A stretch of 42,474 nucleotides of DNA, taken from positions 1 through 42,474 of the forward strand of contig JAFZME010000065.1 of NCBI GenBank assembly GCA_017553405.1. The letters run 5' to 3'. Positions within the stretch are counted from its first letter, which is position 1, and every line of letters starts with the position of its first letter. The stretch is from Bacteroidales bacterium (lineage in GTDB: Bacteria; Bacteroidota; Bacteroidia; Bacteroidales; UBA932). The notes beneath the pieces are model-generated. The model was not told the DNA's origin, made no database searches, and was given only the letters and a program-made list of their open reading frames with translations. Position numbers and translations under genes: made by a program. Positions 1 through 42,474 of the stretch are shown piece after piece.

Positions 1-1
1 C

Positions 2-457
2 GCGGCCGATGCCGGAGCCGACGTGACGCACCTCGACTCCGTGAGGCAGGTCGTCACCTGGGCGCGCGACAATATGGAGCGCAGCGGCCTCGACGGTATC
101 CGCTGGGTGGTCGAAGACGCGCTCAAGTTCGCCAGGAGGGAAGCCAAGCGGGGCAATAAGTATCAGGGCATCATCCTCGACCCGCCCGCCTACGGCCACG
201 GCCCCGACGGCGAAAAATGGAAGCTCGACGAGCTTCTCTTCGACCTCCTCAAGACGGTGGCCGCCATCCTCGCGCCCAGGGACAGCTTCCTCGTCCTCAA
301 CCTCTACTCCAACGGCTATTCCTCAGCCCTCGCCGACACCCTCGTCCGCGAAGCCATCAAGGTCGGCGGCGAAGGACTCTCTTCAGGAGAACTGGCACTG
401 AAGGACCGGTTCGGCAAAGTATTGCCTTTATCCGTATTTGTCCGTCTCGTAAGATAA
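2..457 (+). CDS. Class I SAM-dependent rRNA methyltransferase, RlmI-like, C-terminal part
   Basis: The reading frame is open from base 2 and enters from outside the window, so only about the last 151 residues are present. The visible part starts in the SAM-binding Rossmann fold (AGADVTHLDSVRQVVTWARDN, the acidic strand-2 end that holds the ribose of SAM) and continues through IRWVVEDALKF to the catalytic-type motif ILDPPAYG, near residue 57 of the fragment. This pattern is typical of the RlmI/RlmK-like family that methylates 23S rRNA. The exact target base cannot be told from the fragment. The gene ends with TAA at 455-457, and the pgk promoter follows within 30 bases. Any N-terminal PUA domain would lie outside the window. 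Confidence 0.8.
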   Translation, partial: AADAGADVTHLDSVRQVVTWARDNMERSGLDGIRWVVEDALKFARREAKRGNKYQGIILDPPAYGHGPDGEKWKLDELLFDLLKTVAAILAPRDSFLVLNLYSNGYSSALADTLVREAIKVGGEGLSSGELALKDRFGKVLPLSVFVRLVR

Positions 458-460
458 GGA

Positions 461-491
461 TTGCGAAAAACAAGCAGAATTGTTACATTTG
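461..491 (+). promoter_or_regulatory. Bacteroidota-type promoter for pgk-lgt
   Basis: A perfect -7 box TACATTTG (TAnnTTTG) lies at 484-491. A TTG -33 element lies at 461-463, 20 bases upstream, which is the spacing expected for the Bacteroidota primary sigma factor. The pgk ATG is at 527, giving a leader of about 30 bases. Confidence 0.7.
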
Positions 492-526
492 TAGTCCTGC
501 AACAGAGACAACAAAACTAAAACGAT

Positions 527-1780
527 ATGCAAAAATTCATTGACAGCTACGACTTCACCGGCAAGAAAGCCATCGTGAGAGTCGATTTCAACGTTCCCCT
601 CGACGAGGACTTCAACATCACCGACGACACCCGCATCCGCAGGGCGATGCCCACTCTCAAGAAAGTGCTTGAGAAAGGCGGCAGCCTCATCATAATGTCC
701 CACCTCGGACGCCCCAAGAAGGTCGATCCGAAGTTCTCCCTGAAGCACATCGTGGGCCGCGTTTCCGAGTGCCTCGGCGTGCCCGTGCAGTTCGCGGAGG
801 ATTGCCAGAAGGCCGACGCCCAGGCCGCAGCTCTTAAGCCCGGCGAGGCCCTCCTCCTCGAGAACCTGCGCTACTACGCCGAAGAGGAAGGCAAGCCGAG
901 AGGCCTTGCAGAGGACGCCTCCGACGAGGAGAAGAAGGCAGCCAAGGCGGCCGTGAAGGAGAGCCAGAAGGCCTTCGTCAAGAAGCTCGCCTCCTACGCC
1001 GACTGCTACATCAACGACGCCTTCGGCACCGCCCACCGCGCCCACGCCTCGACAGCCCTCATCGCCGACTACTTCCCCGAGGACAAGATGTTCGGCTACC
1101 TGATGGAAGGCGAGATCACCGCCATCGAGAACGTTCTCAAGAACGCCAAGCGCCCCCTCACCGCCATCATCGGCGGCTCGAAGGTCTCCTCCAAGCTCGC
1201 CGTGCTTAAGAACCTCGTCGGCAAGGTCGACAACCTCATCATCGGCGGCGGTATGGGCTACACCTTCATCAAGGCCCAGGGCGGCAAGATCGGCAAGTCC
1301 CTCCACGAGGACGAGCTCATCCCCGACGCTCTCGCCATCCTCGAAGAGGCCAAGGCCAAGGGAGTCAACGTCTCCCTCTCCGTCAAGACCGTCGCAGGCC
1401 AGGCGTTTGAAAACGACACCCCCCGCCGGATTTTCGACACCCACAACATCGATCCCGAGTGGGAAGGTATGGACGCCGCTCCTGAGTCCATCGAGAACTG
1501 GAAGAAGATCATCCTCGCCTCCAAGACCGTCCTCTGGAACGGCCCCGTCGGCGTGTTCGAGCTTCCCAACTTCGCGAAGGGCACGCTCGCAATCGCCGAG
1601 GCCCTCGCCGAAGCGACCGAGAAGGGCGCCTACACCCTCGTCGGCGGCGGCGACTCCGTGGCTGCCGTGACACAGATGGGCTTCGCCGAGAAGGTGAGCT
1701 ACGTCTCCACCGGCGGCGGCGCAATGCTCGAAGCCATCGAAGGCAAGGAGCTCCCCGGCATCGCTGCAATCCGCAAGTAA
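527..1780 (+). CDS. pgk: Phosphoglycerate kinase
   Basis: Cytosolic glycolytic enzyme that moves the acyl phosphate of 1,3-bisphosphoglycerate to ADP. Its 417 residues match the family. Diagnostic motifs occur in order: [10 protein letters not shown] near residue 18, SHLGRPKK near 59, [15 protein letters not shown] near 112, [10 protein letters not shown] near 166, [12 protein letters not shown] near 218, WNGPVGVFE near 338, and the nucleotide-binding GGGDSVAAV followed by STGGGAMLE near the C-terminus. A charged Lys/Glu/Ala-rich insertion at about residues 125-150 lengthens the N-domain, as in other Bacteroidota PGKs. The start ATG sits behind a good promoter. Only 3 bases separate the stop from lgt, so the two are probably co-transcribed. 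The run GGC GGC GGT ATG at about 1248-1259 illustrates the CATG-avoiding codon switch. Confidence 0.98.
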
Positions 1781-1783
1781 GCG

Positions 1784-2662: not shown

Positions 2663-2681
2663 AAATTTTTAAAAATTACGT

Positions 2682-2710
2682 AAAAATCGCGCTTGCAAGG
2701 CGTGATTTTT
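2682..2710 (+). terminator. Rho-independent-type terminator after pgk-lgt
   Basis: An 11-bp stem pairs AAAAATCGCGC (2682-2692) with GCGTGATTTTT (2700-2710), with one G-U pair and a 7-base loop. The right arm ends in a T run. It sits between the lgt stop and the TolC start inside a short AT-rich gap. Confidence 0.75.
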
Positions 2711-2746
2711 GCATAAAGGAGCGCGCCTTTGTGAAATAATTTGAAT

Positions 2747-4282
2747 ATGACTTTCAAGAAATATCTGCCGGTTCTTATCGCCCTTCTGCTGCTTCCTGCG
2801 GCAGCAAAGGCGCAATACAGGACCGATTCCCTGTCCACCCGCGGCGACACCCTCGTCCTCACCCTCGACGACGCCCTGCGCATCGCCCTGAGCGAGAACG
2901 TCTCCGTCAAGGTGGCCGACAAGGAGATCCAGCGCCTCAAATACGCGAAAGCGGGCTCCTACTCCGCCCTCTTCCCCCAGATCAACTTCTCCGGATCCTA
3001 CCAGAGGACCATCAAGAAGCAGGTTATGTATATGGGCGGCAGCGACGATGAAGAAGGCGGCGGCGGTATGTCCAGTATGTTCTCCGGCATTATGGAGCCG
3101 ATAATGTACTATATCCAGCAGCTCTATGAGGGCACAAGCGTACCCTATGTGCCCTATGTAGCACCCGAGACCGAGACGTCCTCGTCTTCGAGCGACGGCA
3201 TCGAAGTCGGCCGCTGGAACACCTGGAGCGCCGGCATCTCGGCCTCTATGCCGATAGTCAACGCCCAGCTCTGGGAGAGCATCAAGGTCTCCGGCCAGCA
3301 GGTGGAGCTCGCCGTCGAAAAGGCCCGCGAGTCCCGCCTCGGTATGGTCTCCTCCGTCAAGAACGCCTTCTACGGCGTCCTTCTCGCCAAGGAAGTGTTC
3401 GAGGTCTACAAGTCCGTCTATGAGAACGCTCTCGAGAACCTCCAGCTGACCGAAAAGAAATACGAGGCCCAGAAGGCCTCCGAGCTCGACCTCGCCCGCG
3501 CCAAAACGACCTTCGCCAACGCGATTCCCAACGTCTACAACGCCGAGTCCTCAATCATCCTCGGCCTGTGGCAGCTCAAGGCCGTCATCGGTATGGACCT
3601 CGACGAGAACATCGACATCGCCGGCAGCCTCGACGACTTCGCCGACCATATGTTCTACGACATCCACCAGGCCGACTCCGTCTCCCTGGAGGGCAACACC
3701 ACGATGCGCCAGCTCGAGCTCCAGGCCGAGCAGCTCGCCTCAGCCATCAGGATGAACGCTTTCGCCTTCATCCCCACCCTTTCGGCCACCTTCTCCTACA
3801 GCTACAACGCGATGGCCAACGACTTCAAGTTCAAGCAGTACCAGTGGACGCCCTACTCCTTCGTCGGCATATCCCTCAACATCCCCATCTTCACGGGCGG
3901 CAAGAGGATATTCGACATCAAGCAGTCCAAGCTGCAGGCCGCCGAGCTGGATCTCCAGAAGCAGAACACCGAGCGCCAGCTGCGCATCTCCGTGCGCCAG
4001 AGCGTACAGGCAATGGAGACCGCGATGCAGACCTACACCGCCGCCAAAGACGCCCTCGAGTCTGCCGAGAAGGCCTACGACATCGCGGCCAAGTCCTACG
4101 ACGTGGGCCGCAGCACCCTCACGGACGTCGACAACGCCCAGCTCGGCCTTACCCAGGCCAGGCTCAGCGTCTCGCAGGCCATCTACAGTTTCATCACGGC
4201 GAAGACCGGCCTCGAGCAGACAATCGGCTGCGATTTCCTCGACGACCGCGGCAAGGTCGACCTCAACGGCTCCTACAAATAA
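2747..4282 (+). CDS. TolC-family outer-membrane efflux channel
   Basis: Outer-membrane and periplasmic exit duct of a tripartite RND pump. The ATG at 2747 gives 511 residues beginning MTFKKYLPVLIALLLLPAAA, a clear signal peptide ending near AKA-Q. An in-frame TTG two codons upstream is possible but less likely. The mature protein shows two OEP half-repeats of long amphipathic helices: LTLDDALRIALSENVSV near residue 38, and the second half from about 290 with RQLELQAEQLASAIRMNAF. Each contains a strand segment such as ATFSYSYNAMANDF or FVGISLNIPIFTGGKR. An Asp/Glu/Gly/Met/Ser-rich loop at about 95-155 is unusually long. The adaptor gene follows after 6 bases and the permease after that, so the channel is dedicated to this pump. 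Upstream there is a near-consensus box (TAATTTG) one base short of the usual spacing. Confidence 0.93.
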   Translation: MTFKKYLPVLIALLLLPAAAKAQYRTDSLSTRGDTLVLTLDDALRIALSENVSVKVADKEIQRLKYAKAGSYSALFPQINFSGSYQRTIKKQVMYMGGSDDEEGGGGMSSMFSGIMEPIMYYIQQLYEGTSVPYVPYVAPETETSSSSSDGIEVGRWNTWSAGISASMPIVNAQLWESIKVSGQQVELAVEKARESRLGMVSSVKNAFYGVLLAKEVFEVYKSVYENALENLQLTEKKYEAQKASELDLARAKTTFANAIPNVYNAESSIILGLWQLKAVIGMDLDENIDIAGSLDDFADHMFYDIHQADSVSLEGNTTMRQLELQAEQLASAIRMNAFAFIPTLSATFSYSYNAMANDFKFKQYQWTPYSFVGISLNIPIFTGGKRIFDIKQSKLQAAELDLQKQNTERQLRISVRQSVQAMETAMQTYTAAKDALESAEKAYDIAAKSYDVGRSTLTDVDNAQLGLTQARLSVSQAIYSFITAKTGLEQTIGCDFLDDRGKVDLNGSYK

Positions 4283-5335: not shown

Positions 5336-8300
5336 GCATCTACAGAACATCAGTAAACCATCCGGTCACGACGTTCCTGCTCTTCCTGGCGTTCGCGATA
5401 CTTGGCATTTACTCGCTCGTCAAGCTCCCGATCGACTTCTTCCCGGACATCGAGTCCAACACCATTATGGTGATGTCCTCCTACCAGGGAGCCAGCGCGG
5501 AGGATGTCGAGACCAACCTTACAAAGGTCCTGGAGAACTCCCTCAACGGCGTCGCCGACCTTAAGGATATGAGCTCCCAGTCCAAGGAGAACATATCCAT
5601 CATCACCCTCGAGTTCAAATACGGCACCGACATAGAAGTCGCGACCAACGACGTCCGCGACAAGCTCGACCGCGTCAACAGCATCCTGCCCGACGGCGCC
5701 TCCATCCCCATCATCTTCAAGTTCAGTATGGACGATATGCCCATTATGATGATGGCTGCGACCGCCGACCAGAGCGTCCCGGCGCTCGACAAGATCCTCG
5801 ACGACAAGGTCGCCACCCCGCTCGCCCGAGTCTCCGGAGTCGGCACGGTCTCGGTCGTAGGCGCCCCGAAGAGGGAGATTCAGGTCTACTGCGACCCGTC
5901 CAAGCTCAACGCCTACAACCTTTCCATTCCCACGATCTCCCAGATCATCGCCGCGGAGAACCGCAATGTCCCTTCCGGCAGCATCGACATAGGCAGCGAG
6001 ACCTACACCCTCCGTATCAAGAAGGAGTTCAGCGACCCTTCCGAAATCCTCGACCTCGTGGTGGGCTACTCTGCCGGCAAGGCCGTCTATCTGAGGGATG
6101 TCGCGACCGTCAACGACGGGCTTGAAGAGAAGTCGCAGGAGTCCTACACCAACGGCACCCGCGGCGCCCTCGTCATCATCCAGAAGCAGTCCGGTTCCAA
6201 CACCGTGGGCGTGACCAAAGAGGTCAAGAAGACGATGCGCGAGCTCCAGAAGACGCTCCCGTCGGACATCAAGTTCACGGTCGTTATGGACGCCTCGACC
6301 AACATCATCAACACGATCAACTCCCTGAAGGAGACCATCTTCATCACCTTCCTCGTGGTTATGCTGGTCGTCTTCATCTTCCTCGGAAGGTGGAGAGGCA
6401 CCATCATAGTCGTCCTGTCGATTCCTATCGCCCTGCTGGCGTCCCTGATGTACCTGTTCGTGACGGACAACTCTCTCAACATCATCTCGATGTCTTCGCT
6501 GTCCATTGCGATCGGTATGGTCGTGGACGACGCCATCGTCGTGCTGGAGAATGTCTCGACTCATCTCGACAGGGGAGAAAAGCCCAAGGAGGCGGCCGTC
6601 CACGGCACCTCCGAAGTCGGTATCTCCGTCATCGCCTCCACCCTCACGATGCTCTGCGTCTTCCTCCCGCTGACGATGATCAGCGGTATGGCCGGCGTTA
6701 TGTTCAAGCAGCTCGGATGGATCATCTCCATCATTATGATAGTGTCCACGACGGCGGCCCTCACCCTCGTCCCGATGCTCTGCTCGATAATGCTGACCAA
6801 CAAGCCGAAGACCGGCAAGCTCCATATGGCCATCTTCGGCCCCGTCAACAAGTTCCTCGACGGGCTTTCCGGCGGCTACGGCAAGTTCATCGCCTGGTGT
6901 ATGAAGCACAAGACCATCGTCCTGACAAGCGCGCTTGCAGTCTTCGTCCTGACGCTGGTTCTCCTCGTGCCGAGGATCAAGACGGAGTACTTCCCGAAGG
7001 CCGACCAGGGCCGTCTTTCCGCCACCGTCGAGCTCCCCATCGGCACGTCACAGGCCGTCACGGCCGACGTCGCCCACAGAATCTACAAGAAGATTGCGGC
7101 CGACGTGCCGGAGATCAAGGTTCTCAACTACCGCTTCGGCCAGGCCGACACCGACAACGCCTTCGCCTCGATGCAGGCCAACGGCGCCTACCTCATCTCG
7201 ATGAACATCAATCTCGGAAGTATGGAGAACCGTGAACGCTCCGTCTTCGAGATAGCCGACATCATCCGCGCCGACATCGCCTCCTTCCCGGAGATCAGGA
7301 AGTTCAACGTGACTGAAGGCGCCGGCGGAATGGGCGGCGCGACCACCGTCAAGGTCGAGGTCTACGGTTTCGATTTCGACACCACGGAGGACGTGGCTAA
7401 AATGCTCAGGAACAAGATGTCCGAAGATCCGAGCTTCACCCAGGTCAACATCAGCCGCGACCAGTACACCCCTGAATACCAGGTCGACTTCGACCGCGAG
7501 AAGCTCGCCATCAACGGCCTGTCTTCAACGACTGCGGCCGCGGCCTTCAGTTCCGCGATGAACGGCTCGGTGGGCTCGTTCTTCCGTGAGAACGGCGACG
7601 AATACAACATCCGTGTCCGCTATGCCCCCGAGTTCAGAAGAGGCATCGAGGACATCGAGAATATCATAGTCTACAACCCCGCGGGCCGCGGTGTCAGGAT
7701 GAAGGAGCTCGGCCAGGTGGTCGAATCCAAGGTTCCTCCGACCATCGAGAGGAAGAACCGTTCAAGGCTTGTCACCGTGACCGGAGTCGTTTCCAGGGAC
7801 CACGCCCTCAGCGACGCCGTCGCGGCCTGCCAGAAGATCATCGACGAGAGCGAAATCCCCACGGAGATCACCCCTGTCATCGGCGGCGACTATGAAGACC
7901 AGCAGGAAATGTTCTCCGATATGCTCCTGCTTGTCGCGCTCATCATCATCCTCGTCTATATGGTGATGGCCTCGCAGTTCGAGTCCTATCTCGGCCCGTT
8001 CGTCATTATGTTCTCCATCCCCTTCGCCTTCGTCGGCGTCATCCTCGGCCTCTGGACCACAGGGACAGCCCTCGGCGTTATGGGTATGGTCGGTATCATC
8101 ATCCTTCTCGGTATAGTGGTCAAGAACGGTATCGTGCTCATAGACTACACCATACTCTGTCAGGAAAGGGGTATCGGCATCAGGGAATCCTCCGTGACCG
8201 CGGCCAAGAGCCGTCTCAGGCCTATCCTTATGACCACCCTCACGACCGTGCTCGGTATGCTTCCTATGGCCCTCGGCCGCGGAGAAGGTTCCGAAATGTG

Positions 8301-8448
8301 GCGCGGCCTCGGTATGGTGGTCTGCTGGGGTCTTTCCATATCGACCGTCGTCACCCTCGTCATCATCCCGACGCTTTACTGCGGCCTCACCGAAATTCGC
8401 GAGAAACACGCTGCGAAAAAAGCCGCCAAGGCAGCGGCAAAAGCATAA
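5332..8448 (+). CDS. RND-family efflux permease (AcrB-like)
   Basis: Proton-driven inner-membrane pump of 1038 residues, the length of the AcrB/HAE class. TM1 lies at about 12-30, followed by a large periplasmic porter loop. The TM4 signature GMVVDDAIVVLENV contains the proton-relay pair Asp399-Asp400. A second porter loop follows, and the TM10 motif GIVVKNGIVLIDY holds the conserved relay Lys. Two internal halves are evident. The C-terminus is a short Ala/Lys-rich cytoplasmic tail. It overlaps the adaptor by 4 bases and is followed after 3 bases by the PG0541-like gene. The class exports drugs, lipophiles or envelope components, and the specificity cannot be read from sequence. Met-rich stretches such as 5728-5757 use AGT, GAT and ATT before ATG, avoiding CATG. 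Confidence 0.96.
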   Translation: MSIYRTSVNHPVTTFLLFLAFAILGIYSLVKLPIDFFPDIESNTIMVMSSYQGASAEDVETNLTKVLENSLNGVADLKDMSSQSKENISIITLEFKYGTDIEVATNDVRDKLDRVNSILPDGASIPIIFKFSMDDMPIMMMAATADQSVPALDKILDDKVATPLARVSGVGTVSVVGAPKREIQVYCDPSKLNAYNLSIPTISQIIAAENRNVPSGSIDIGSETYTLRIKKEFSDPSEILDLVVGYSAGKAVYLRDVATVNDGLEEKSQESYTNGTRGALVIIQKQSGSNTVGVTKEVKKTMRELQKTLPSDIKFTVVMDASTNIINTINSLKETIFITFLVVMLVVFIFLGRWRGTIIVVLSIPIALLASLMYLFVTDNSLNIISMSSLSIAIGMVVDDAIVVLENVSTHLDRGEKPKEAAVHGTSEVGISVIASTLTMLCVFLPLTMISGMAGVMFKQLGWIISIIMIVSTTAALTLVPMLCSIMLTNKPKTGKLHMAIFGPVNKFLDGLSGGYGKFIAWCMKHKTIVLTSALAVFVLTLVLLVPRIKTEYFPKADQGRLSATVELPIGTSQAVTADVAHRIYKKIAADVPEIKVLNYRFGQADTDNAFASMQANGAYLISMNINLGSMENRERSVFEIADIIRADIASFPEIRKFNVTEGAGGMGGATTVKVEVYGFDFDTTEDVAKMLRNKMSEDPSFTQVNISRDQYTPEYQVDFDREKLAINGLSSTTAAAAFSSAMNGSVGSFFRENGDEYNIRVRYAPEFRRGIEDIENIIVYNPAGRGVRMKELGQVVESKVPPTIERKNRSRLVTVTGVVSRDHALSDAVAACQKIIDESEIPTEITPVIGGDYEDQQEMFSDMLLLVALIIILVYMVMASQFESYLGPFVIMFSIPFAFVGVILGLWTTGTALGVMGMVGIIILLGIVVKNGIVLIDYTILCQERGIGIRESSVTAAKSRLRPILMTTLTTVLGMLPMALGRGEGSEMWRGLGMVVCWGLSISTVVTLVIIPTLYCGLTEIREKHAAKKAAKAAAKA

Positions 8449-8451
8449 AAT

Positions 8452-8745
8452 ATGAAAGCTATATTCATTGCATATAATCAGGCCTACAATCAGGAGATTG
8501 TGGAGCTTCTCGAGGCCCAGGGCCAGCGCGGCTACACCGTCTGGGAGGAAATCGGAGGGCGCGGCAGCGTCGACGGCGAGCCCCATCTCGGCAACCACGC
8601 CTGGCCCACCCAGAACCACGCCATCCTCTCCGCCGTCGACGACAGCCTTGTCGCCGGCATAATGGACGCCCTCCGCAAGAAGGACGAGGCCTACAAAGAC
8701 CTGGGGCTCAGGGCCTACACCTGGTCGATAGAAGAGGCCCTTTAG
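8452..8745 (+). CDS. PG0541-family RND transporter-associated protein
   Basis: Small soluble protein of 97 residues with no signal peptide or membrane segment. It begins MKAIFIAYNQAYNQEIVELL and has a predicted beta-alpha-beta, ferredoxin-like layout. A conserved central stretch reads GYTVWEEIGGRGS followed by EPHLGNHAWPTQNHAIL. Proteins of this type sit directly behind RND permeases in Bacteroidota and are known as the PG0541 family. The fold recalls PII-like signalling proteins, so a role in sensing or regulating the pump is an inference. Here it is the last gene of the operon, 3 bases after the permease stop. It ends just before the trxA promoter. Confidence 0.75.
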   Translation: MKAIFIAYNQAYNQEIVELLEAQGQRGYTVWEEIGGRGSVDGEPHLGNHAWPTQNHAILSAVDDSLVAGIMDALRKKDEAYKDLGLRAYTWSIEEAL

Positions 8746-8755
8746 AAAATTTTAT

Positions 8756-8763
8756 TATATTTG
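8756..8763 (+). promoter_or_regulatory. Putative -7 box upstream of trxA
   Basis: A perfect TATATTTG (TAnnTTTG) starts 10 bases after the PG0541-like stop codon and 33 bases before the trxA ATG. No convincing -33 TTG lies at the expected distance, so the call rests on the -7 box alone. Confidence 0.5.
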
Positions 8764-8796
8764 CGAGGTTAGGACATAAGAGTCCTGCTGTATATT

Positions 8797-9111
8797 ATGC
8801 TTAAAATCATCACCGAGAATAATTTCTCCGAGATAACCGCCACCGGCGGACTCGTCGTTATCGATTTCTGGGCCACCTGGTGCGGCCCCTGCAGAATGCT
8901 TTCCCCCATCGTGGACGAACTGGCCGACGAACTGGCCGGCAAAGTCACCGTCGCCAAGTGCAACGTTGACGACTGCCCCGACATCGCGGCCGACTACGGC
9001 ATCCGCAGCATCCCCACGCTGATATTCCTCAAGGACGGCCAGGCTGTCGAAAGGAGCGTCGGCGTCAGGTCGAAAGAGGAGCTTCTCGGCATCATCAACT
9101 CCCTTCTTTAA
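8797..9111 (+). CDS. trxA: Thioredoxin
   Basis: Cytosolic disulfide reductase of 104 residues, the usual size, with no signal peptide. The active site [10 protein letters not shown] has redox cysteines at 29 and 32. The cis-proline loop is [13 protein letters not shown] near residue 68. The sequence keeps the fold-defining VVIDFWA strand and the final [12 protein letters not shown] helix. It is the first gene of an eight-gene run in which the remaining genes follow with almost no gap. The next gene starts 3 bases later and encodes an outer-membrane barrel, so the grouping looks like housekeeping co-transcription rather than a pathway. Confidence 0.96.
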
Positions 9112-9114
9112 CCA

Positions 9115-9822
9115 ATGAAAAGGTTTCTCACAGTCATCGCTGCCCTCGCAGTGATGATTTCCGCATCGGCGCAGGGCCTCAAGCTCGCCGACGGTATCCA
9201 CTATGGCGTCGTGGGCGGTTTCACATCCTCCCAGACCAACATCAAGAATTTCTCCTCCAAGTCGATAGCCCTCTACCACGCCGGCATCACTGCAAAGTTC
9301 AACCTTGGTATCGGTTTCGCCATCCAGCCGGCCCTCATCTATCAGGTGAAGGGCGCCAGGCTCTATGACGTGATCAACGAAGGGCTGTCCGAAGAAGAGA
9401 GGCACCAGTTCGACTATAAGCTCGGCTACCTCGAGCTCCCAGTCAACATCCAGTGGGGTCCGGACCTTCTGGCCTTCAGGCCTTACGTTTTCGTTGAGCC
9501 GTTTGTCGGCTATGCCGTCAACAACGACCTCATCGACGCCGTCAAGACGGCCGAAATCGAAGACTACACCAACCAGGAAAAGATCAAGAACGGCTGGAAG
9601 GAGTACGGTCTCAAGAGATTCGAGTACGGCCTCGGCCTCGGCGCCGGCTTCGAATTCTGGAGGGTTCAGATCTCCGCCCAGTGGTTCTGGAACTTCGGCA
9701 CGCTCTACAGCCCCACCTCCGACTCCGTCGATGGGCAGAACATTGCCGACAACATCAAGGACGCTTTCACCAAGAACAAGAACTTCCAGGGTGTGAAGGT
9801 GTCCCTCGCAATTATGTTCTAA
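9115..9822 (+). CDS. PorT-like outer-membrane beta-barrel protein
   Basis: A 235-residue exported protein. A signal peptide (MKRFLTVIAALAVMISASAQ) precedes alternating hydrophobic strands: HYGVVGGFTSSQ, IGFAIQPALIYQ, YLELPVNIQWG, FVEPFVGYAVNN, RFEYGLGLGAGFEFW and VQISAQWFWNFG. The protein ends in VKVSLAIMF, and a terminal Phe is the usual signal for barrel insertion by BAM. The layout matches the eight-stranded outer-membrane barrels common in Bacteroidota (OMP_b-brl_2 type, annotated as porin family or PorT). PorT itself belongs to the type IX secretion system, but similar barrels exist outside it and no T9SS gene is nearby, so a specific role is not assigned. Confidence 0.78.
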   Translation: MKRFLTVIAALAVMISASAQGLKLADGIHYGVVGGFTSSQTNIKNFSSKSIALYHAGITAKFNLGIGFAIQPALIYQVKGARLYDVINEGLSEEERHQFDYKLGYLELPVNIQWGPDLLAFRPYVFVEPFVGYAVNNDLIDAVKTAEIEDYTNQEKIKNGWKEYGLKRFEYGLGLGAGFEFWRVQISAQWFWNFGTLYSPTSDSVDGQNIADNIKDAFTKNKNFQGVKVSLAIMF

Positions 9823-12955: not shown

Positions 12956-13380
12956 GAAAGACGGGAGCCGTCATACTGCTTCTGGCCTTCTTTCTGGCCT
13001 GTTCCGCGCCCAAGGGGGCGGAGCAGTTCCTGAAGGGAGCAGGCCCCTGGTCGTTCGAGGTGGATATGACGGACAGCCTGTCCACCTATGACATCTCGTT
13101 CTACACCAGGCGCGACTGCGCCCCTGCCAGGAGAGCGCAGGTAGCGGAGCTCCCGCTGACCGTCGAGTGGGTGTCGCCCGCGGCCGACACCTTGAGAGAG
13201 GTCGTGTACCTGCCTCTTTCGGCAAAGAGCACGTTCTACTCCTCGGAGACCTCGATTCCCTACCGTAATGGCGTGGCTCCGGCCAGCCACGGCGTCTGGA
13301 CACTCGTCGTCACGCCTCACGACACCGTCACCGTCCGCGGCCTCCGCGGCCTCGGCCTGGCTGTCAAACGCCGTAAGTGA
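12952..13380 (+). CDS. GldH-like lipoprotein
   Basis: A lipoprotein of 142 residues. The signal MRKTGAVILLLAFFLAC ends with the lipidated Cys17. The mature part is small and beta-rich, with WSFEVDMTDSLSTYDISFYTRRD, LPLTVEWVSPAADTLREVVYLPLS, and a final HGVWTLVVTPHDTVTVRGL. Position directly behind ricT and size fit the GldH gliding-motility lipoproteins, which occur widely in Bacteroidota including non-gliding species. Sequence identity to GldH is only moderate to the eye, so the name is an inference from context and fold. No other gld or spr gene is present in the window. The start overlaps the ricT stop (ATGA). Confidence 0.6.
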   Translation: MRKTGAVILLLAFFLACSAPKGAEQFLKGAGPWSFEVDMTDSLSTYDISFYTRRDCAPARRAQVAELPLTVEWVSPAADTLREVVYLPLSAKSTFYSSETSIPYRNGVAPASHGVWTLVVTPHDTVTVRGLRGLGLAVKRRK

Positions 13381-29356: not shown

Positions 29357-29370
29357 CGTCTTTATAATTT

Positions 29371-35057: not shown

Positions 35058-35986
35058 ATTGTCATTAAATATTCAATTAAAACTTCTTCCGGGGCGTCCT
35101 TCAGGACGACCTTTTTGTCTTTATCAAGCAGGTAGATGGATGGAATCGCGCGAAGGTGATAGACGGTGTCGGCCCGGATTATGCCGGAAGGATCGTAGCC
35201 AAGCGTCCAATCCTTCGGAAAATCCTTCACCGACGCCCTCCAGGCCTCGATATCCTCGTCCACATATATGTCGACGAACGACACGGTCCCTTCCGAGACG
35301 CTGCGGCCGAGGTCCTCGTTGTCCTCAATCATCTCCACCAGCGTGCGGCAGGCCGCGCAGTCCGGGTTGCCGAAAATAAGGACCGTCCATTCGCCGCGGA
35401 GGCCGTGAAGCGTCCTGTGGCGGCCGGCAAGGTCGATGAAATCGAAATCCGGCGCCGTGGTGCCTACGGCCGCAAGCGCGGCGAGCGACGCCCATTTTGC
35501 ATATGGCTCCTTTTCAGCCTCGGTCAGCAGCGGGCTGCCGGACGCGGCGGCGCAGAAAGCGCCGAAAGCGTCCTCGTTGCGCACCGGGCTCTGGGGATCA
35601 TAGAGGTATTTTTCCACGATTGAAGCGACGCCCTTGAACAGGGCCGTGTCGCCTTTTTCGTCCAGTTTGGCCGCAAGGGCATCCAGGGCCTGCGCCGACT
35701 CTCCGGGAGGCACTATCCTCACAAGGCTCGCATAGGTCCCCGCCGCCTTCTCCATATCCGCCATACTCACTCCGGCGACCTTCAGGGAGTCTGTGCTGAA
35801 GCCGTCCGCACCTTTGATAAACGCATCCCAGTAATGAGTCAGGGCATAGCTTATCCTCTCCTCCTCCGGGACCGCCGCCGGCACCTTCATCTCGGGGAAC
35901 GCCCTCGCCGCCTCAACATCCCCGGCCTTCCTGCCTCCGCAGGAGACAAGAATCAATAAAGGTATTAGCAAAGACAAGCGGCGCAT
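35054..35986 (-). CDS. Thioredoxin-like lipoprotein (DUF5106-like)
   Basis: A 310-residue exported lipoprotein; [16 protein letters not shown] places the lipidated Cys at 16. The N-terminal half (about 35-170) is helical and resembles the DUF5106 domain found in Bacteroidales. The C-terminal half is a thioredoxin fold starting [15 protein letters not shown], with redox motif NPDCAACR (Cys210, Cys213) and a cis-Pro loop [11 protein letters not shown]. It probably acts on thiols in the periplasm or at the outer-membrane face. The start ATG overlaps the preceding stop as TAATG and the stop overlaps thyA as ATGA. The longer upstream frame lies within the neighbouring gene and lacks a signal. Confidence 0.8.
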
Positions 35987-38900
35987 TAAATGTCTACACT
36001 GAAAATCAGCTGGGCGGTTACTCTCTTCGTCAGACCGGCGGCGTGCAGGAGGTTGAAACAACTGCCTGCGTTGACGTCGACTCGCGCTCCTATAGAGCAG
36101 GCGAAGGGGAGGAAAAGGATATTGGCAAGCTCTGCCGTTATGTCCACGCCGGCGCTCACGAGGTTGCCTCCCTTGAAAAAGAGGGCGTCGCAGTGGGGCA
36201 CGAGGAGAAAATTCTTTATATACAGGACCGGCGAGAAGCAGGAGATGTCGCCCACATAGACCGGGATGGCGTAGTCGGCGCTCACCTTGAACTGGGTGGG
36301 AGCGAAAGCGAACAGACCGGAAATATCGTTGAAGGAATAGCCTCTCGGAGCCGTCGAGACGTAATTTTCCGGGAACAAAGCAGTGCCGAGATGATGCTGG
36401 ACCATCGCGGAAAGCTTTAGCCCCTGCCTTGTCGTGATGCCCGGCAGGTAGCCGTAAAGATAGCCGTAAAGATTGGGCTCATAGAGACTGCTGACGCCGG
36501 GGCGGAATCCGAAGCCGACCTCCGCGCCGATACCGAGGCGGGGATAGACCTGGCTTTCAGCCCTCGGAAGCATCGCGTAGCCCCTGACCGAGGCCGTGAG
36601 CCTCTGGTAAAGATGGAACGCTCCGTCGCTCGCCCCGATGAAATCCACGTGGTACATCCCCGAAAGGGAGTCCTCGGTGGTGGTGCGAACCTCTATCGTG
36701 CTTATGCGGTCGTTGGTGATGTTGTAATTGATACGCGGGACGAAACCGCTCAGGATGCCGCCCTTGGAGAAGGACAGCGGCAGATAGACGGAGAAGTTGC
36801 CGGAGACCATCGGGTAGCCGAGAAGTTCGCCGGGACGGGAGATGAGCCGCATAGGGCCGCTGACCTGAGTCCGGAGGTTCTGCTGAATGGCGTTGCGGTC
36901 GTTGAAGTCTATGGACGCTTCGAAAGCGGGATAGAGGCCGGTGTAGGTAAACTTCGCGTGGGCGGAGTGCTTCCACTTGCGGCCGGTGAGGGATGAATAT
37001 GGATCCTTATGGGCGGAATAACCTACATAGCCGGTCATTGTGCCGAGGTCGTTCTGGAAGAGGACCGTAGCACCGAGCGAAGCCGTCTCGTAGCTGAAAT
37101 CCATACTCTGGGACGCAATTTTGTCGATATTGAACCACACGGGGGCCCACGAATGGATCTTCAGCAGATGGGGGAACTTGCGGTAGCGTTTCGTGACGGC
37201 TTCCGTCGTGTCGGGGGCCTCCTCGGGGAGCTCCGCTTCCTGGGCCGAAAGGCGGTCCGCCAGGTCGTTTTTATGGGGCTTCGTGAGATCCGCCGGGACC
37301 GGTGTCAGGTCCTTGATTTTGGTGCGGAAAATCATCCTTCCGCCCTCCGAAAGGGCCGAATAGATGAATTCGTCGCCCATTATAGTGTGGTCGGACGAAC
37401 CGAACGGAGTGGAGGTCAGACGCTCCGCCTTGCCGGAGGCGGGATCCCAGGCGTAAAGCTCATTGACTCCGCCAATGTCGGAGACGAACAGGAGCCGGTC
37501 CTCATAACTCCACAGGAAGAATATCCTTGACGGCACCGGTGCGATGTCCTCCTTCCACTGCCCGCCTTCATAATGCCAGACTCCGCAGCCTCCGTCGGCA
37601 ACGCCGAGCGCGTAGAACACTCCCTTGAATATCGTAAACTCCGTAAAAGTGATCCCGGAAGGGGACGGCAGGCTGCTCAGGCGGGAGCCATCCTCCGCTG
37701 AAAGGCCCACGATATTGGACCCACCCTCCGGGGGGAATTCCACCACATAGACCATCTTGCCGTCAGGAGTGGGCTCCGGGTTGAAAAAGCGCCCGTCCTT
37801 GGTAAGGTCGTGGCGGCGGCCTGTGTTGAGGTCGATGTAGCGGATTATGCACTTGTCGGAAAGGCTCCACCTCGGGTCGGGAATCGCCTCCCTCCAGTAG
37901 ATCCTGCCACGGCTGCTGTCAGGAATCAGGACGCCGGAGTTGGAGCCGAACGGCCCAAGACGGCGGACATTGCCGAGGGTGTCTATCTCGACCAGTGAAG
38001 TCGCCCTGTCCTTACCGCTCTGGAGAGCATAGATCTTATCTCCGACGGACGTGAAACGGTCGTAAGCGTTGTAGAACTTCTTGTCGGGAGTGATCTGCTT
38101 CATCGGCATAAACGGCTCACGCTCCTTGAAACCGGCCGCCCAATCAGTGCCCAGACTGTCGAGGATACTGCGGAAAGTCGGCTTCAGCTTCATCCCGGAA
38201 GCTTCCTTTATGGTCTTCTGGAAATTGCCTATGCGAAGCGGGTGGCGGACCACGTTGTCGAAATAGCGCTTGGTAAAGAGCGGATCGTCGTAGTAGCCCC
38301 TGACGCCGCCTACCATAAGATAGCCCGCCCGGTAATGGTCCGGCGTGTAGTGGCGGAACGAGCCATAGCGCCAGCGCCAGAAGTTGCGGTAGTCGCCGTG
38401 GGCAAGCGCGTAAAGGTAATACTCAAGGAATTCCGCGCTTCGCCCCCGGCCTGCCGACGAGAGTGCGGTCTCCGCGACCACCGCGTCTCCTTCCAGGAGC
38501 ACAGGGTCGGGATAGATGCCGTCCACGGCGCCGGCCCACATCTCCCCAAGCACGTAATGGAGCCAGTTGAAGGCGCCGCGATAGGAAAACTGCATTTGCG
38601 CCACGTGGCGGGACTCGTGGATGACGAGTTCCACCGCCCCGGGCATAGCGCTGTCCGGAGTCGACTCCTGCACGGGGTAGAGGGCCATCCTTTTCGGCGC
38701 CCACACCACAAGCCCGTTGGGGTTGATGGAATAGGGGTGAAGGATCACCGGCAGGCGCCCCCACTGAAGGGAGCACGGCTGCATCCCGATGGATTTGCCG
38801 ACCACCGGGCGGTATTTTTCCAAAAGGGTGGAATACAGCGACGGGAGGCTGTCACCTATCGCCTGAGGATAGATGAGACGGTAATTCCGGGATATCTTCT

Positions 38901-39012
38901 GGTCCCATTTCAGGGAACCGGGATCGTCGCCGTCGAGATAGAACTGGGCAGACGAAGGGAGACACCACGCAAGGAGTGCCGCTAAGGACAGTATAATCCT
39001 CCTTGCACGCAT
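35986..39012 (-). CDS. Outer-membrane protein with HExxH peptidase-like domain, propeller and C-terminal barrel
   Basis: A 1008-residue exported protein; signal peptide to about residue 23 (LLAWCLPSSAQ). The N-terminal domain contains HESRH (132-136), an HExxH zinc motif, followed 38 residues later by LLEGDAVVAET with Glu174 as a plausible third ligand, the gluzincin arrangement. The middle (about 310-590) is a run of short strands with DGK and SG turns, like a TolB-type beta-propeller. The last 400 residues alternate strands typical of an outer-membrane barrel (for example LGATVLFQNDLGTMTGYVGYS). It would place a putative metallopeptidase at the cell surface or in the periplasm. Catalysis and substrate are inferences. 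Coupled to pheS (3 bases) and the next gene (TAATG). Confidence 0.72.
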   Translation of the reverse strand: MRARRIILSLAALLAWCLPSSAQFYLDGDDPGSLKWDQKISRNYRLIYPQAIGDSLPSLYSTLLEKYRPVVGKSIGMQPCSLQWGRLPVILHPYSINPNGLVVWAPKRMALYPVQESTPDSAMPGAVELVIHESRHVAQMQFSYRGAFNWLHYVLGEMWAGAVDGIYPDPVLLEGDAVVAETALSSAGRGRSAEFLEYYLYALAHGDYRNFWRWRYGSFRHYTPDHYRAGYLMVGGVRGYYDDPLFTKRYFDNVVRHPLRIGNFQKTIKEASGMKLKPTFRSILDSLGTDWAAGFKEREPFMPMKQITPDKKFYNAYDRFTSVGDKIYALQSGKDRATSLVEIDTLGNVRRLGPFGSNSGVLIPDSSRGRIYWREAIPDPRWSLSDKCIIRYIDLNTGRRHDLTKDGRFFNPEPTPDGKMVYVVEFPPEGGSNIVGLSAEDGSRLSSLPSPSGITFTEFTIFKGVFYALGVADGGCGVWHYEGGQWKEDIAPVPSRIFFLWSYEDRLLFVSDIGGVNELYAWDPASGKAERLTSTPFGSSDHTIMGDEFIYSALSEGGRMIFRTKIKDLTPVPADLTKPHKNDLADRLSAQEAELPEEAPDTTEAVTKRYRKFPHLLKIHSWAPVWFNIDKIASQSMDFSYETASLGATVLFQNDLGTMTGYVGYSAHKDPYSSLTGRKWKHSAHAKFTYTGLYPAFEASIDFNDRNAIQQNLRTQVSGPMRLISRPGELLGYPMVSGNFSVYLPLSFSKGGILSGFVPRINYNITNDRISTIEVRTTTEDSLSGMYHVDFIGASDGAFHLYQRLTASVRGYAMLPRAESQVYPRLGIGAEVGFGFRPGVSSLYEPNLYGYLYGYLPGITTRQGLKLSAMVQHHLGTALFPENYVSTAPRGYSFNDISGLFAFAPTQFKVSADYAIPVYVGDISCFSPVLYIKNFLLVPHCDALFFKGGNLVSAGVDITAELANILFLPFACSIGARVDVNAGSCFNLLHAAGLTKRVTAQLIFSVDI

Positions 39013-39015
39013 AGC

Positions 39016-40050
39016 CTACACTTCCACCGAGGTCTCGAACTGCTTAAGGAAACGGATGTCGTTCTCGAAGTAGTGGCGGAGGTCGTTGACCTGCCACTTG
39101 AGCATCGCGATGCGCTCGATACCCATACCGAAGGCGAAACCGCTGTATTCATTGGGATCTATGCCGCAGGCCTTGAGGACGTTGGGGTCCACCATACCGC
39201 AGCCGAGGATCTCGAGCCAGCCGCTGCCCTTGCAGATGTTGCAGCCCTCGCCGTGGCAGATGTTGCAGCTGACGTCGACCTCCGATGAAGGCTCTGTGAA
39301 CGGGAAATAGGAAGGACGCATACGGATATTGGCGTCGGGGCCGAACATCTCGCGGGCGAAAAGCAGGATGGCCTGCTTGAGGTCGGCGAAGGTCACTCCT
39401 TTATCGACATAAAGTCCCTCGACCTGGTGGAAAATGCAGTGGGCGCGGGCCGAAATGGCCTCGTTGCGGAAGACGCGGCCCGGGCAGATGACGCGGATCG
39501 GCGGCTTCTGCGAGAGCATCGTCCTCACCTGGATGGACGAGGTGTGGGTGCGGAGAAGGAGCGGGTTCTCGTGGCCGGCGGACACGAAGAAGGTGTCCTG
39601 CATATCACGGGCGGGGTGATTCGGGGGGAAGTTGAGGGCCTCGAAGACGTGGAAATCATCCTCGATCTCAGGGCCTTCGGCCACGTCGTAGCCGAATTTG
39701 CGGAATATGTCGACAATCTCCTGACGCACGATCGAGACGGGGTGACGCGATCCGAGAGGAAGGCGGTCGCCGGGCATAGAGAGGTCGTTGCCGGAGGCTT
39801 CGGCCTCGCCGCCGGAGGAGACTTCTTCCTTGAGCTGCTCGATCCTGGCCGCCGCGGCCTTCTTGAGCTCGTTGAGCTTCTGGCCGAACTCCCTTTTCAT
39901 CTCAGGGGCTATGCTCCTGAAATCGTCGAAGAGTTTGGTGACCTTACCGTTCTTTCCGAGATATTTTACCCTGGCTTCTTCAGCCTCCGCAGCCGTCTTT
40001 GCCTTCAGTTCGGCAAGCTCGGCCTTGATCTGTTCGATTTTCTCTTTCAT
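39016..40050 (-). CDS. pheS: Phenylalanyl-tRNA synthetase, alpha subunit
   Basis: Catalytic subunit of the class II alpha2-beta2 synthetase that charges tRNA-Phe. It has 344 residues. The N-terminal coiled coil (about 1-80) contacts tRNA. Motif 2 lies in CPGRVFRNEAISARAHCIFH and motif 3 in GFAFGMGIERIAMLKW near the end. RTHTSSIQVRTM and FVSAGHENPLLL are also characteristic. A Cys-rich insert, SCNICHGEGCNICKGSGW, precedes LEILGCGMVDPNVL; such a zinc-ribbon-like insert is known from Bacteroidota PheS. The pheT gene for the beta subunit is not in the window. The start overlaps the preceding stop as TAATG. Confidence 0.97.
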   Translation of the reverse strand: MKEKIEQIKAELAELKAKTAAEAEEARVKYLGKNGKVTKLFDDFRSIAPEMKREFGQKLNELKKAAAARIEQLKEEVSSGGEAEASGNDLSMPGDRLPLGSRHPVSIVRQEIVDIFRKFGYDVAEGPEIEDDFHVFEALNFPPNHPARDMQDTFFVSAGHENPLLLRTHTSSIQVRTMLSQKPPIRVICPGRVFRNEAISARAHCIFHQVEGLYVDKGVTFADLKQAILLFAREMFGPDANIRMRPSYFPFTEPSSEVDVSCNICHGEGCNICKGSGWLEILGCGMVDPNVLKACGIDPNEYSGFAFGMGIERIAMLKWQVNDLRHYFENDIRFLKQFETSVEV

Positions 40051-40499
40051 TATTTCTTGTTCTTCTTTTTCTTTGACGGTTTCTCAGGGGTGAGGCCGGC
40101 TCGCTTGTCGCGGGCCTGCTTTTCGCGGAGGGCGCCGCCCTTGAGGTATTTCTCCCATTGCTCCGGAGTGAGGAAGCCCTTGAAGGCTTCGTAGGTCTTT
40201 TCATCCCACTTGTCGTGGACGGCTATGTACATATCCACATTCTGCACGCCGGACTTCTGGAGCTTCTCAAGCTCGTCCTGCATCGCGTGAAGGTTATTGT
40301 TGAGGGTGGAATCCGCGTAGAATTCCTGCCAGTACTCGAGCTCGAGCTGGGAGGAGAATTTCTCGACCTGTTTTTCTATATACTCAACCATTTTCTTCTC
40401 CTTCTCCTCAGGGGTGGAAGGCGGAGCATCCTGCTGCTGAGCCCTAAGAAAGGGGATCAGCATAAGGAGCAAAACGGCCGATGCGACTATTCTTTTCAT
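40050..40499 (-). CDS. Secreted Spy/CpxP-like small protein
   Basis: Small exported protein of 149 residues. The signal peptide MKRIVASAVLLLMLIPFLRAQ precedes a helical mature part with heavy charge: EEKEKKMVEYIEKQVEKF, LEYWQEFYADSTLNNNLHAM and AVHDKWDEKTYEAFKG, then LTPEQWEKYLKGG, which resembles the LTxxQ motif of periplasmic Spy and CpxP chaperones. The C-terminus is very basic. No family can be named with certainty. A longer frame runs upstream through the antisense of the next gene and is not real. It is the first gene of a six-gene operon that continues to folA and overlaps pheS by TAATG. The promoter at 40534-40541 fits this start. Confidence 0.7.
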   Translation of the reverse strand: MKRIVASAVLLLMLIPFLRAQQQDAPPSTPEEKEKKMVEYIEKQVEKFSSQLELEYWQEFYADSTLNNNLHAMQDELEKLQKSGVQNVDMYIAVHDKWDEKTYEAFKGFLTPEQWEKYLKGGALREKQARDKRAGLTPEKPSKKKKNKK

Positions 40500-40533
40500 A
40501 CTATTATATAGCTTAGTTAAAAAGCTAATCCTA

Positions 40534-40541
40534 CAAAAGTA
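40534..40541 (-). promoter_or_regulatory. -7 box of the six-gene pheS-thyA-folA operon
   Basis: On the minus strand the sequence reads TACTTTTG, a perfect TAnnTTTG, 34 bases before the ATG at 40499. It lies in the same short gap as the C69 promoter, facing away from it. No certain -33 TTG was seen. Confidence 0.55.
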
Positions 40542-40553
40542 CAAAATTTTAGG

Positions 40554-40561
40554 TAACTTTG
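40554..40561 (+). promoter_or_regulatory. -7 box of the C69 dipeptidase gene
   Basis: TAACTTTG matches TAnnTTTG and ends 19 bases before the ATG at 40581. The leader would be about 15 bases. A -33 TTG is not evident at the expected spacing. Confidence 0.55.
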
Positions 40562-40580
40562 TCCAGATATACCTTGTAGT

Positions 40581-42311
40581 ATGAAGAAAATACTGTTTGT
40601 CCTGACCTGCCTCGCGGCGGTTTTCGCGGCCGTCCCTTCGGACGCCTGCACCAATGTCATTATATCGAAAGGCGCCAGCGCCAATGGCTCCGTGATGGTC
40701 TCCTACGCCGCCGATTCGCATATGCTCTTCGGCGAGCTGTACTTCCACAAGGCCGCCCGCTGGAAGAAAGGCGCGATGCTCTCCGTCAACGAATGGGACA
40801 CCGGCCGCCACCTGACCGAGATTCCCCAGCCGGCGGAGACCTACAAGACCGTCGGCAATATGAACGAGCACCAGCTCATCATCGGCGAGACGACCTACGG
40901 CGGCCGTGAAGAACTTATGCAGGAGGACGGCCTTATCGACTATGGCTCCCTTATCTATATCACGCTCCAGAGAGCCCGCACCGCGCGTGAAGCCATCGCC
41001 ACCATCGTGGAGCTGGCCGACACCTACGGCTACTGCTCGGAGGGCGAAAGCTTCTCCATCGCCGACCGTGAGGAGGCCTGGGTTATGGACCTCATCGGCC
41101 GCGGCGACACCGGGAAGGGCATCGTCTATGTGGCGATGAGGGTTCCCGACGGCGCGATCTGCGCCCACGCCAACCAGTCCCGCATCGGCCGCTTCCCGCT
41201 CAACGATCCGGACAACTGCCTCTATGCGGAGGACGTCATCTCCCTTGCCCGCAGCAAGGGCTGGTTCGACGGCTGCGACGAGGAGTTCAGCTTCCGCGAC
41301 GCCTATTGCCCGGCCGATTTCGGCACGGTCCGCGGCTGCGACGCCAGGGCCTGGAGCGCATTCAACATCCTCACCGGCGGGACCTTCCGCTACAAGGACG
41401 AGAACGGGGAGATGAACGTCTGCGATTCCTACGCGTTCATCGACTATGCGACCGGGATGAACCTGTCCCATCCATTCCCTCTTTTCGTCTATCCGGAAGA
41501 AAAAATCACGGTCAAGCAGGTTGCCGACGTGATGAGGGACCACTATGAGGGCACGCCTATGGATATGACGCAGGACATCGGCGCCGGCGGCAACGCCCTT
41601 CCTTACCGCTGGAGGCCTATGGAGTGGAAGGTCGACGGGGAGACCTACGTCAACGAGAGGGCCATCGCCACGCAGCAGACCGGCTTCTGGTTCGTCGCCG
41701 AGGCCCGCGGATGGCTCCCCCCGGAAATCGGCGGGATCTTCTGGTTCGGCACCGACGATGCCGCCACGTCCTACCTCACGCCAATCTACACTGCGACTTC
41801 AGAGGTTCCCGACTGCTTCCGCGAGGGGAATGGCAACATCCTTCAGTACTCTCCCACGGCCTCCTTCTGGATCAACAACCGTGTCGCCAACGCCTGCTAC
41901 AAGGCCTATAACCTTATGGCCCCGACAGTTGTCGAGGCGGCGAACGCCTTTGAAAACGATCAGATCTTCCGCGCCACGCGGCAGGCCGACAGCACCGCCG
42001 TCGCGATGCTGTCCCGCAGCCTCTGGCACGGCCTCGCCGTCCGCAGGGTCAACCGCTACCTCACCCGCTACACCGTCGAGACGGCCCAGCGGCAGTTCGA
42101 GGCCTGGAAGGCCTTGGAGGAGCTGCTGCTGGTCAAGTTCATCGACGGCAACGTGAAGGACCAGAACCCCGACGGCACCTTCATCACCAGCGAGACGTCC
42201 GACCGGATGCCGGCCAAGATCGGCTGGCCCGGCTACACCGAGCTCTGGAAGCGCGCCGTCGCCGCCTCCGACAAAGGCGCGTTCCTGAAGGTCCCCGCCC
42301 CGGAGGAATAG
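40581..42311 (+). CDS. C69-family dipeptidase
   Basis: N-terminal-nucleophile peptidase of family C69, 576 residues, probably periplasmic. The signal peptide runs from MKKILFVLTCLAAVFAAVPS to SDA; cleavage exposes Cys23 (ACTNVIISKGAS) as both new N-terminus and catalytic nucleophile, the usual arrangement in exported C69 enzymes. ESFSIADREEAWVMDLIG near 155-172 and the YADSHMLFGE region support the family. It should release amino acids from dipeptides, in nutrient uptake or wall-peptide recycling. It stands alone with its own promoter, divergent from the pheS operon, and is followed immediately by a hairpin. Confidence 0.9.
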   Translation: MKKILFVLTCLAAVFAAVPSDACTNVIISKGASANGSVMVSYAADSHMLFGELYFHKAARWKKGAMLSVNEWDTGRHLTEIPQPAETYKTVGNMNEHQLIIGETTYGGREELMQEDGLIDYGSLIYITLQRARTAREAIATIVELADTYGYCSEGESFSIADREEAWVMDLIGRGDTGKGIVYVAMRVPDGAICAHANQSRIGRFPLNDPDNCLYAEDVISLARSKGWFDGCDEEFSFRDAYCPADFGTVRGCDARAWSAFNILTGGTFRYKDENGEMNVCDSYAFIDYATGMNLSHPFPLFVYPEEKITVKQVADVMRDHYEGTPMDMTQDIGAGGNALPYRWRPMEWKVDGETYVNERAIATQQTGFWFVAEARGWLPPEIGGIFWFGTDDAATSYLTPIYTATSEVPDCFREGNGNILQYSPTASFWINNRVANACYKAYNLMAPTVVEAANAFENDQIFRATRQADSTAVAMLSRSLWHGLAVRRVNRYLTRYTVETAQRQFEAWKALEELLLVKFIDGNVKDQNPDGTFITSETSDRMPAKIGWPGYTELWKRAVAASDKGAFLKVPAPEE

Positions 42312-42312
42312 T

Positions 42313-42348
42313 GTGCCCGGTGGTGCTTTTGACGGCACCACCAGGCAC
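42313..42348. terminator. Hairpin after the C69 gene
   Basis: GGTGGTGC (42319-42326) pairs with GCACCACC (42335-42342) around an 8-base loop starting TTTT. One mismatch away, GTGCC (42313-42317) pairs with GGCAC (42344-42348). It begins 1 base after the stop codon and lies between convergent genes. Confidence 0.65.
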
Positions 42349-42355
42349 GAAATCC

Positions 42356-42409
42356 CCGGAAAAACGTAACAGGTGGTGCTTTTTCGAGCACCACCTGTTA
42401 CATTTCCGG
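42356..42409. terminator. Second, stronger hairpin with the same core
   Basis: A perfect 15-bp stem GTAACAGGTGGTGCT (42366-42380) pairs with 42387-42401 around a 6-base loop. An outer stem CCGGAAA (42356-42362) pairs with TTTCCGG (42403-42409), separated by a small internal loop. It shares the GGTGGTGCTTTT core with the first hairpin. Bidirectional termination is plausible. Confidence 0.65.
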
Positions 42410-42423
42410 CTCGGGGCCGGGCC

Positions 42424-42474
42424 CTACTCCAGGCCGCGGCCGCGGAGGAGGGCGGCGGGATCCGGATCGCCGCC
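42424..42474 (-). CDS. C-terminal fragment of an unidentified gene
   Basis: On the minus strand the last 51 bases read GGDPDPAALLRGRGLE followed by a TAG stop at 42424-42426. Codons are GC-ending like the neighbouring genes, and the position opposite a double hairpin fits the end of a convergent gene. Only 16 residues are visible, too few to name the protein, and chance openness of such GC-rich sequence cannot be excluded. Confidence 0.4.
   Translation of the reverse strand, partial: GGDPDPAALLRGRGLE

Follow-up and report, generated by a model that had tools for sequence, protein, structure and literature searches.

Near-complete avoidance of the tetranucleotide CATG in the genome of a Bacteroidales bacterium

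We analyzed a stretch of 42,474 nucleotides (hereafter the window) from a Bacteroidales bacterium, which is almost devoid of the tetranucleotide CATG. The window constitutes contig JAFZME010000065.1 of assembly GCA_017553405.1 (contig C85 of genome G000 in our collection; G000:C85:1-42474). This genome is a partly masked bin of 2.25 Mb with a completeness of 93.6%, distributed over 177 contigs. A genome-wide sample was taken from 20 of the other 176 contigs, one of which was fully masked, leaving about 218 kb of readable sequence. For cluster and longer-word counts the genome's own sequence was pooled to 260 kb. The relevant features of the window are the following; a strand is given where one applies.

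1 to 42474: whole contig, with housekeeping and envelope genes; CATG 1 vs 147 expected, CTAG 1 vs 59 expected
3056 to 3115, + strand: codon choice before Met in an outer membrane efflux protein gene; consecutive GGC codons give way to GGT before ATG, followed by AGT, ATT and ATA
3647 to 3652, + strand: His-Met as CAT ATG, as read in the sequence
5725 to 5760, + strand: codon choice before Met in an AcrB-family gene; AGT, GAT and ATT before ATG
6823 to 6828, + strand: His-Met as CAT ATG, as read in the sequence
15329 to 15332: the only CTAG, inside the open reading frame (ORF) 15135-18209 (TMEM260-like)
26463 to 26595: inverted repeat with 27-nt arms, 89% complementary; its 79-nt loop holds the only CATG
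26508 to 26511: the only CATG; it lies outside annotated ORFs, in the loop of 79 nt that separates the inverted-repeat arms

Instead of this single CATG, a maximal-order Markov model, which uses trimer and dimer counts, predicts 147.2 copies; base composition predicts 155.8, and dinucleotide shuffles give 132 (standard deviation 12). The preliminary description of this DNA had placed one CATG at this very position and had predicted about 150 from composition; both statements were correct. The tetramer count proposed there gave observed-to-expected ratios (O/E) of 0.007 for the window and 0.03 for the contig sample (23 vs 771 expected), both by the Markov statistic. CTAG, which had been overlooked, is about as rare as CATG in the window and less extreme in the contig sample (34 vs 264 expected, 0.13). 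These two words are the lowest of all 256 tetramers, and the next word follows at 0.41 in the window and 0.36 in the contig sample. GATC and CCGG are common in the window, as described before (O/E 0.70 and 0.83). Among longer words in the genome's own sample, all 5-mers with an expectation of 20 copies or more were at or above 0.51 and the lowest 6-mer with at least 12 expected was TAACTC (3 vs 14, 0.21). The avoidance of CATG is real, strong, word-specific and genome-wide. Neither of the two results named beforehand as contrary to it, a genome-wide ratio near 1 or a codon-aware null model predicting almost no CATG, was obtained.

The codon-aware null model consisted of 30 shuffles of synonymous codons in mechanically called ORFs, which preserve proteins as well as codon usage. 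For 28 window genes the observed count was zero in every frame, with 16.5, 5.7 and 131.7 expected (about 154 in total). For the 182 genes of window and contig sample, 5, 2 and 12 copies were found instead of 131.9, 43.1 and 641.4. CTAG counts in these genes were 16, 5 and 5 (38.0, 83.6 and 11.5 expected), and the counts of four control words (GATC, GTAC, CCGG and TGCA) differed from expectation by no more than about 2-fold in any frame. Intergenic DNA of the sample is depleted as well, with 3 CATG vs 51.6 expected and 7 CTAG vs 26.8 expected. The synonymous base that is altered differs between the frames: it is the C in xxC ATG, the T in CAT Gxx and the A in xCA TGx. Codons ending in C or T were counted before ATG, a tabulation also suggested earlier, and comprise 12 with C and 604 with T there vs 35468 with C and 11424 with T elsewhere. 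His preceding a codon that starts with G is encoded by CAC in 414 of 419 cases (CAT 5), and only 2 of 426 NCN codons preceding TG are NCA. The examples given for the window were verified at slightly shifted coordinates, a few bases off: GGT ATG (3065), AGT ATG (3074), ATT ATG (3089) and ATA ATG (3101) in the efflux protein gene, AGT ATG (5725), GAT ATG (5734) and ATT ATG (5743) in the AcrB-family gene, and both CAT ATG pairs. Synonymous loss at the free base in all three frames, together with the intergenic loss, points to selection on the word itself.

The distribution among relatives was examined in two surveys. In 80 Bacteroidales LepA loci the CATG O/E ranged from 0.00 (L071, 0 of 65 expected) to 1.29. 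The closest LepA relatives are uncultured Bacteroidales bins with 91% identity, and O/E in the closest relatives L001-L003 was 0.56-0.64. With a cut-off of O/E <0.3 and at least 15 expected copies, 61 of 1196 palindrome tests but only 6 of 18503 non-palindrome tests were low. The low palindromes were CTAG (36), GATC (12), CATG (6), CGCG (2), GGCC (2), AGCT (2) and GCGC (1), i.e. 25 without CTAG. That strongly depleted words are nearly all palindromes is a mark of type II restriction. Low CTAG is a trait that the window shares with many Bacteroidales (36 of the 80 loci), whereas low CATG is confined to 6. AGCT is wholly absent from two loci, L065 (0 of 45 expected) and L079 (0 of 61), a like purge of a different palindrome.

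The second survey covered 149 genomes of the family and used the count of CATGN{0,8}GC divided by that of its reversed control, a ratio that is not an O/E. Its median was 1.33. The lowest values belong to G144 (0.059) and to the genome studied here (0.081; 454 matches vs 5590 for the control). A ratio <0.6, which we call depleted, was found in 16 genomes, a ratio <0.5 in 12 genomes from 7 genera and a ratio <0.25 in 5 genomes from 5 genera, all of these below one sixth of the family median. Ten sampled congeners of the genome studied here had ratios of 1.18-3.01, none being depleted; nine of ten sampled G144 congeners lay at 1.38-2.35 and the tenth (G063) at 0.47. Direct counts in four stretches of G001 (Alistipes sp. 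UBA934; L071, L214-L216) gave 1 CATG vs 236 expected and 1 CTAG vs 86, a joint absence of both words like that in the window. Smaller samples of G037, G082 and G034 contained 21 of 165, 12 of 145 and 26 of 186 expected CATGs, and the undepleted G043 and G110 contained 111 of 136 and 40 of 67. Several relatives' stretches had been picked for their proximity to a methyltransferase match or to clustered CATGs (two in G144, three in G037, two in G082 and at least one in G001), which raises their CATG counts. The loss either arose several times or was itself lost many times, and several origins seem the simpler account.

The sites that remain are clustered. The 24 CATGs in 260 kb fill only 13 bins of two kb, fewer than in any of 5000 random trials (mean 22.0, minimum 17); four lie inside one gene and three within 205 bases of another. 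One cluster (L097 13319-14179) is located in and just before a gene for an EcoRI-family methyltransferase (PF13651, E 5e-122), which carries three CATGs itself. A GmrSD_N-HNH nuclease gene comes after it, and the two resemble a type II restriction-modification (R-M) pair (L097 13403-15702, on G000:C144). The other clusters are found in TonB-receptor, DUF4595, DUF5696 and similar genes. In G144, five blind-chosen stretches held 2 CATGs vs 239 expected. L202, picked for its CATG cluster, held 17 vs 42, and L207, picked for a methyltransferase match, 14 vs 49, all between 6.2 and 15.8 kb. This part of L207 coincides with a run of defence genes (5843-16317) for PARIS AriA/AriB-like proteins, Lamassu LmuA/LmuB, an MmeI-type IIG enzyme and Ditto-like proteins. 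The two CATG-bearing defence clusters, one in each genome, are probably later imports. With such clusters in place, the word cannot be strictly lethal at present; this speaks for a system that methylates its sites or has been lost, rather than for a nuclease without a partner. A separate observation concerns G037, where six CATGs with a spacing of exactly 12 bases lie inside a 463-aa ORF (L211 1191-1251), about 8 kb from a PF02384 gene. For the inverted repeat around the window's own CATG, the 14-base core of the arm was found nowhere else as an exact copy, neither in the window nor among the 221 loci searched.

Taken together, CATG is far rarer than its subwords predict, type II enzymes that recognise this palindromic word are known, ten congeners lack the depletion, and the loss extends over coding DNA, where it is synonymous, and noncoding DNA. 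Based on these results we consider it likely that the lineage carried a long-resident, orthodox type II R-M system with CATG as its target, which is now lost or lies outside the bin. Avoidance of a CATG-cutting system had been one possibility raised in the preliminary description. It is now the best supported one, with palindromic targets, lineage specificity and synonymous loss in every frame in its favour; the enzyme it implies was not found. The process could be envisaged as follows. An NlaIII-like endonuclease and a separate methyltransferase would have resided in the lineage for a long time, until recently or up to the present. Occasional incomplete methylation would leave a CATG open to cleavage, giving a small advantage to a cell with one site fewer. 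Synonymous changes would then eliminate CATG from every reading frame of the genes, and intergenic copies would be removed too. DNA imported later could keep its CATGs, protected by methylation or spared after the loss of the endonuclease. The system itself may have been lost recently or may be encoded on DNA outside the incomplete bin. Any loss would have to be recent, as CATG has not returned.

Several results weigh against this explanation, first of all those of the enzyme search. A Pfam scan of 30 window ORFs revealed no DNA methyltransferase and no restriction nuclease, in agreement with the earlier reading of the window. In the bin as a whole, PF02086, PF01555, PF00145, PF02384, PF07669 and PDLC03224 had no match, and a cognate methyltransferase gene was not found; given a completeness of 93.6% and some masking, this does not prove its absence. 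The methyltransferase search suggested earlier thus came out negative for six models and yielded one protein for PF13651, which does not track CATG loss. No tested family separates depleted from undepleted genomes. In hand-picked sets, which did not include the depleted G045, the matches in depleted and other genomes were 1/14 vs 2/18 for PF02086, 7/15 (G001 included) vs 8/18 for PF01555, 9/16 vs 11/17 for PF02384 and 13/16 vs 11/17 for PF07669. PF13651 occurs in 17 of the 149 genomes, 1/16 depleted and 16/133 others, the genome studied here being the sole depleted carrier. It is also awkward that a recent loss of the system would be needed in several lineages. The clusters in TonB-receptor, DUF4595 and DUF5696 genes may be imports, but are candidates only. 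Orthologous sites, finally, give a weak argument: of 19 CATGs conserved in four relatives none is kept in the window (13 are now TATG), compared with 1452 of 2898 words kept overall, but the test is small and CGGT (0/9) and CTGA (0/14) are likewise never kept, so that we regard it as supportive only.

Individual candidates for the enzyme were rejected. M.NlaIII belongs to the D12 family. An NlaIII-type D12 methyltransferase as present cause does not agree with the absence of PF02086 from the genome studied here and from 13 of 14 other depleted genomes. In a further hand-picked set, chosen by LepA-locus O/E, PF02086 matched 5/11 low-CATG genomes vs 4/22 others. The five proteins are three of the Dam family, one BsoBI-type and one RsmD-like, none of them recognisably a CATG enzyme. 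The Dam-family genes (G002, G009 and G010) adjoin REase_II genes and appear to be GATC-specific; the pair in G001 is BsoBI-type. The PF13651 methyltransferase with its GmrSD_N-HNH neighbour was rejected as the CATG system on three grounds: none of the 16 other carriers is depleted, the nearest pair (84% and 88% identical) resides in G167 with a ratio of 2.57, and the methyltransferase gene contains CATG itself. GAATTC is not depleted in the genome's own sample (82 vs 68 expected). An Eco57I-type pair common to the depleted G037 and G048 was dismissed too: its short partner gave a weak, below-cut-off match to a methyltransferase domain and none to a nuclease family, and the genome studied here has no PF07669 match. 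On the side of the endonuclease, one HNH nuclease was noted, next to the PF13651 protein. A search by endonuclease sequence may fail here, since the Ureaplasma CATG endonuclease was reported to lack homology to known endonucleases (PMC6191088).

Among the alternatives, we regard as unlikely, and disfavour, restriction without modification, in which a CATG nuclease works without a methyltransferase and nothing but the absence of the word protects the chromosome. The near-total purge and the six unmatched methyltransferase models would agree with it. G144, in which avoidance is strongest (5 contigs, 92% complete), lacks matches to PF02086 and PF13651; PF01555 gave a single match below the cut-off, and PF02384 only the MmeI-type enzyme. 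For PF07669 it has that enzyme below the cut-off and a 325-aa protein (26.5 bits), relatives of which also occur in the undepleted G055. An active unpaired cutter, however, should not allow the CATG-bearing stretches described above, such as the 14 copies in 20 kb of G144. Furthermore, both genomes are incomplete, and PF00145 was applied to the genome studied here only. Equally improbable in our estimate is that some Bacteroidales define self by the absence of a word, CATG-bearing stretches being protected somehow or not yet purged. Separate instances would then be CATG in G001 and most of G144, and AGCT in L065 and L079, an extension to which we assign the same low likelihood.

A mutational process without selection, in which CATG decays through deamination of a modified C or through rewriting by a Vsr-like repair activity, appears slightly less probable still. 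The missing C in fourfold codons before ATG is mostly replaced by T, with fractions of T 0.38 and C 0.01 here vs T 0.09 and C 0.38 in relatives, whose counts hold some wrong frames due to the mechanical ORF calls (His fraction 0.037 vs 0.019 in the genome's own sample). The prevalence of TATG at the orthologous sites would also be in line with it. The C-to-T excess does not separate the two explanations, as transition-biased mutation under selection is expected to give the same. More informative are the other two frames, which lose T or A. A process directed at C would spare these frames or alter amino acids; the frame pattern fits selection. In addition, the genome has no PF00145 match. The dependence of the altered base on the frame makes methylation or repair destroying CATG, the second possibility of the preliminary description, less likely.

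Selection at the level of RNA, e.g. by an endoribonuclease cutting CAUG in messenger RNA, is very unlikely. By count most of the depletion is in genes, and a palindrome cannot reveal strand asymmetry, but intergenic CATG is strongly depleted too (transcribed and untranscribed DNA pooled), and the depletion of other palindromes such as GATC and AGCT in relatives fits DNA restriction. An artefact of assembly or null model, conceivable for an incomplete bin in 177 contigs, can practically be dismissed in view of long, CATG-free ORFs with full-length Pfam matches and altered codon choice, the agreement of four null models, and ten identically counted congeners without depletion.

Two further parts of the window attracted attention. 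A run of DUF2490, DUF4956, VTC-domain and Cthe_2159/Big_2 genes (26607-32226) is perhaps, as a guess, a polyphosphate- or surface-related cluster. ORFs of 1008 and 497 aa (35986-39012 and 40050-41543) have no Pfam match at E 0.001.

If a CATG-specific R-M system was indeed the cause, selection against a restriction site can recast a bacterial chromosome near-completely, down to the codon preceding each methionine, and seemingly did so several times inside one bacterial family. The case is of interest for its completeness, its recurrence in the family and the missing enzyme. Closely related species that have or lack CATG, and a purged majority beside CATG-bearing stretches in one genome, provide a natural experiment, and the age of gene acquisition might be readable from CATG content. 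Should a methyltransferase never be found, the rule that restriction needs modification would come into question.

Among the titles and abstract openings listed for the open-access literature searched, none concerned CATG loss in Bacteroidales. Known enzymes that cut CATG include NlaIII and UpaP162 of Ureaplasma parvum (PMC6191088); their recognition site is the word purged here, and no homologue was identified, a search aimed at one not having been possible. In the survey of Rusinov et al. 2015 (PMC4687349), avoidance was found for 850 of the 1774 site-genome pairs of orthodox type II systems and for none of those of types I, III and IIC/G. Sites of long-resident systems are avoided more often there, avoidance can outlast the system, and avoidance without a system is read as the possible trace of a lost one. 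The CATG purge resembles these cases in concerning a palindromic word, in being lineage-specific and in occurring, as also reported there, without a cognate system in the genome. It differs in that the responsible system was not found here. The purge thus fits known restriction-site avoidance, and what is unusual is its completeness: the cut-off applied in that survey was a Kr of 0.78 (Karlin's statistic), compared with Markov ratios of 0.007 and 0.03 for CATG in the window and the contig sample.

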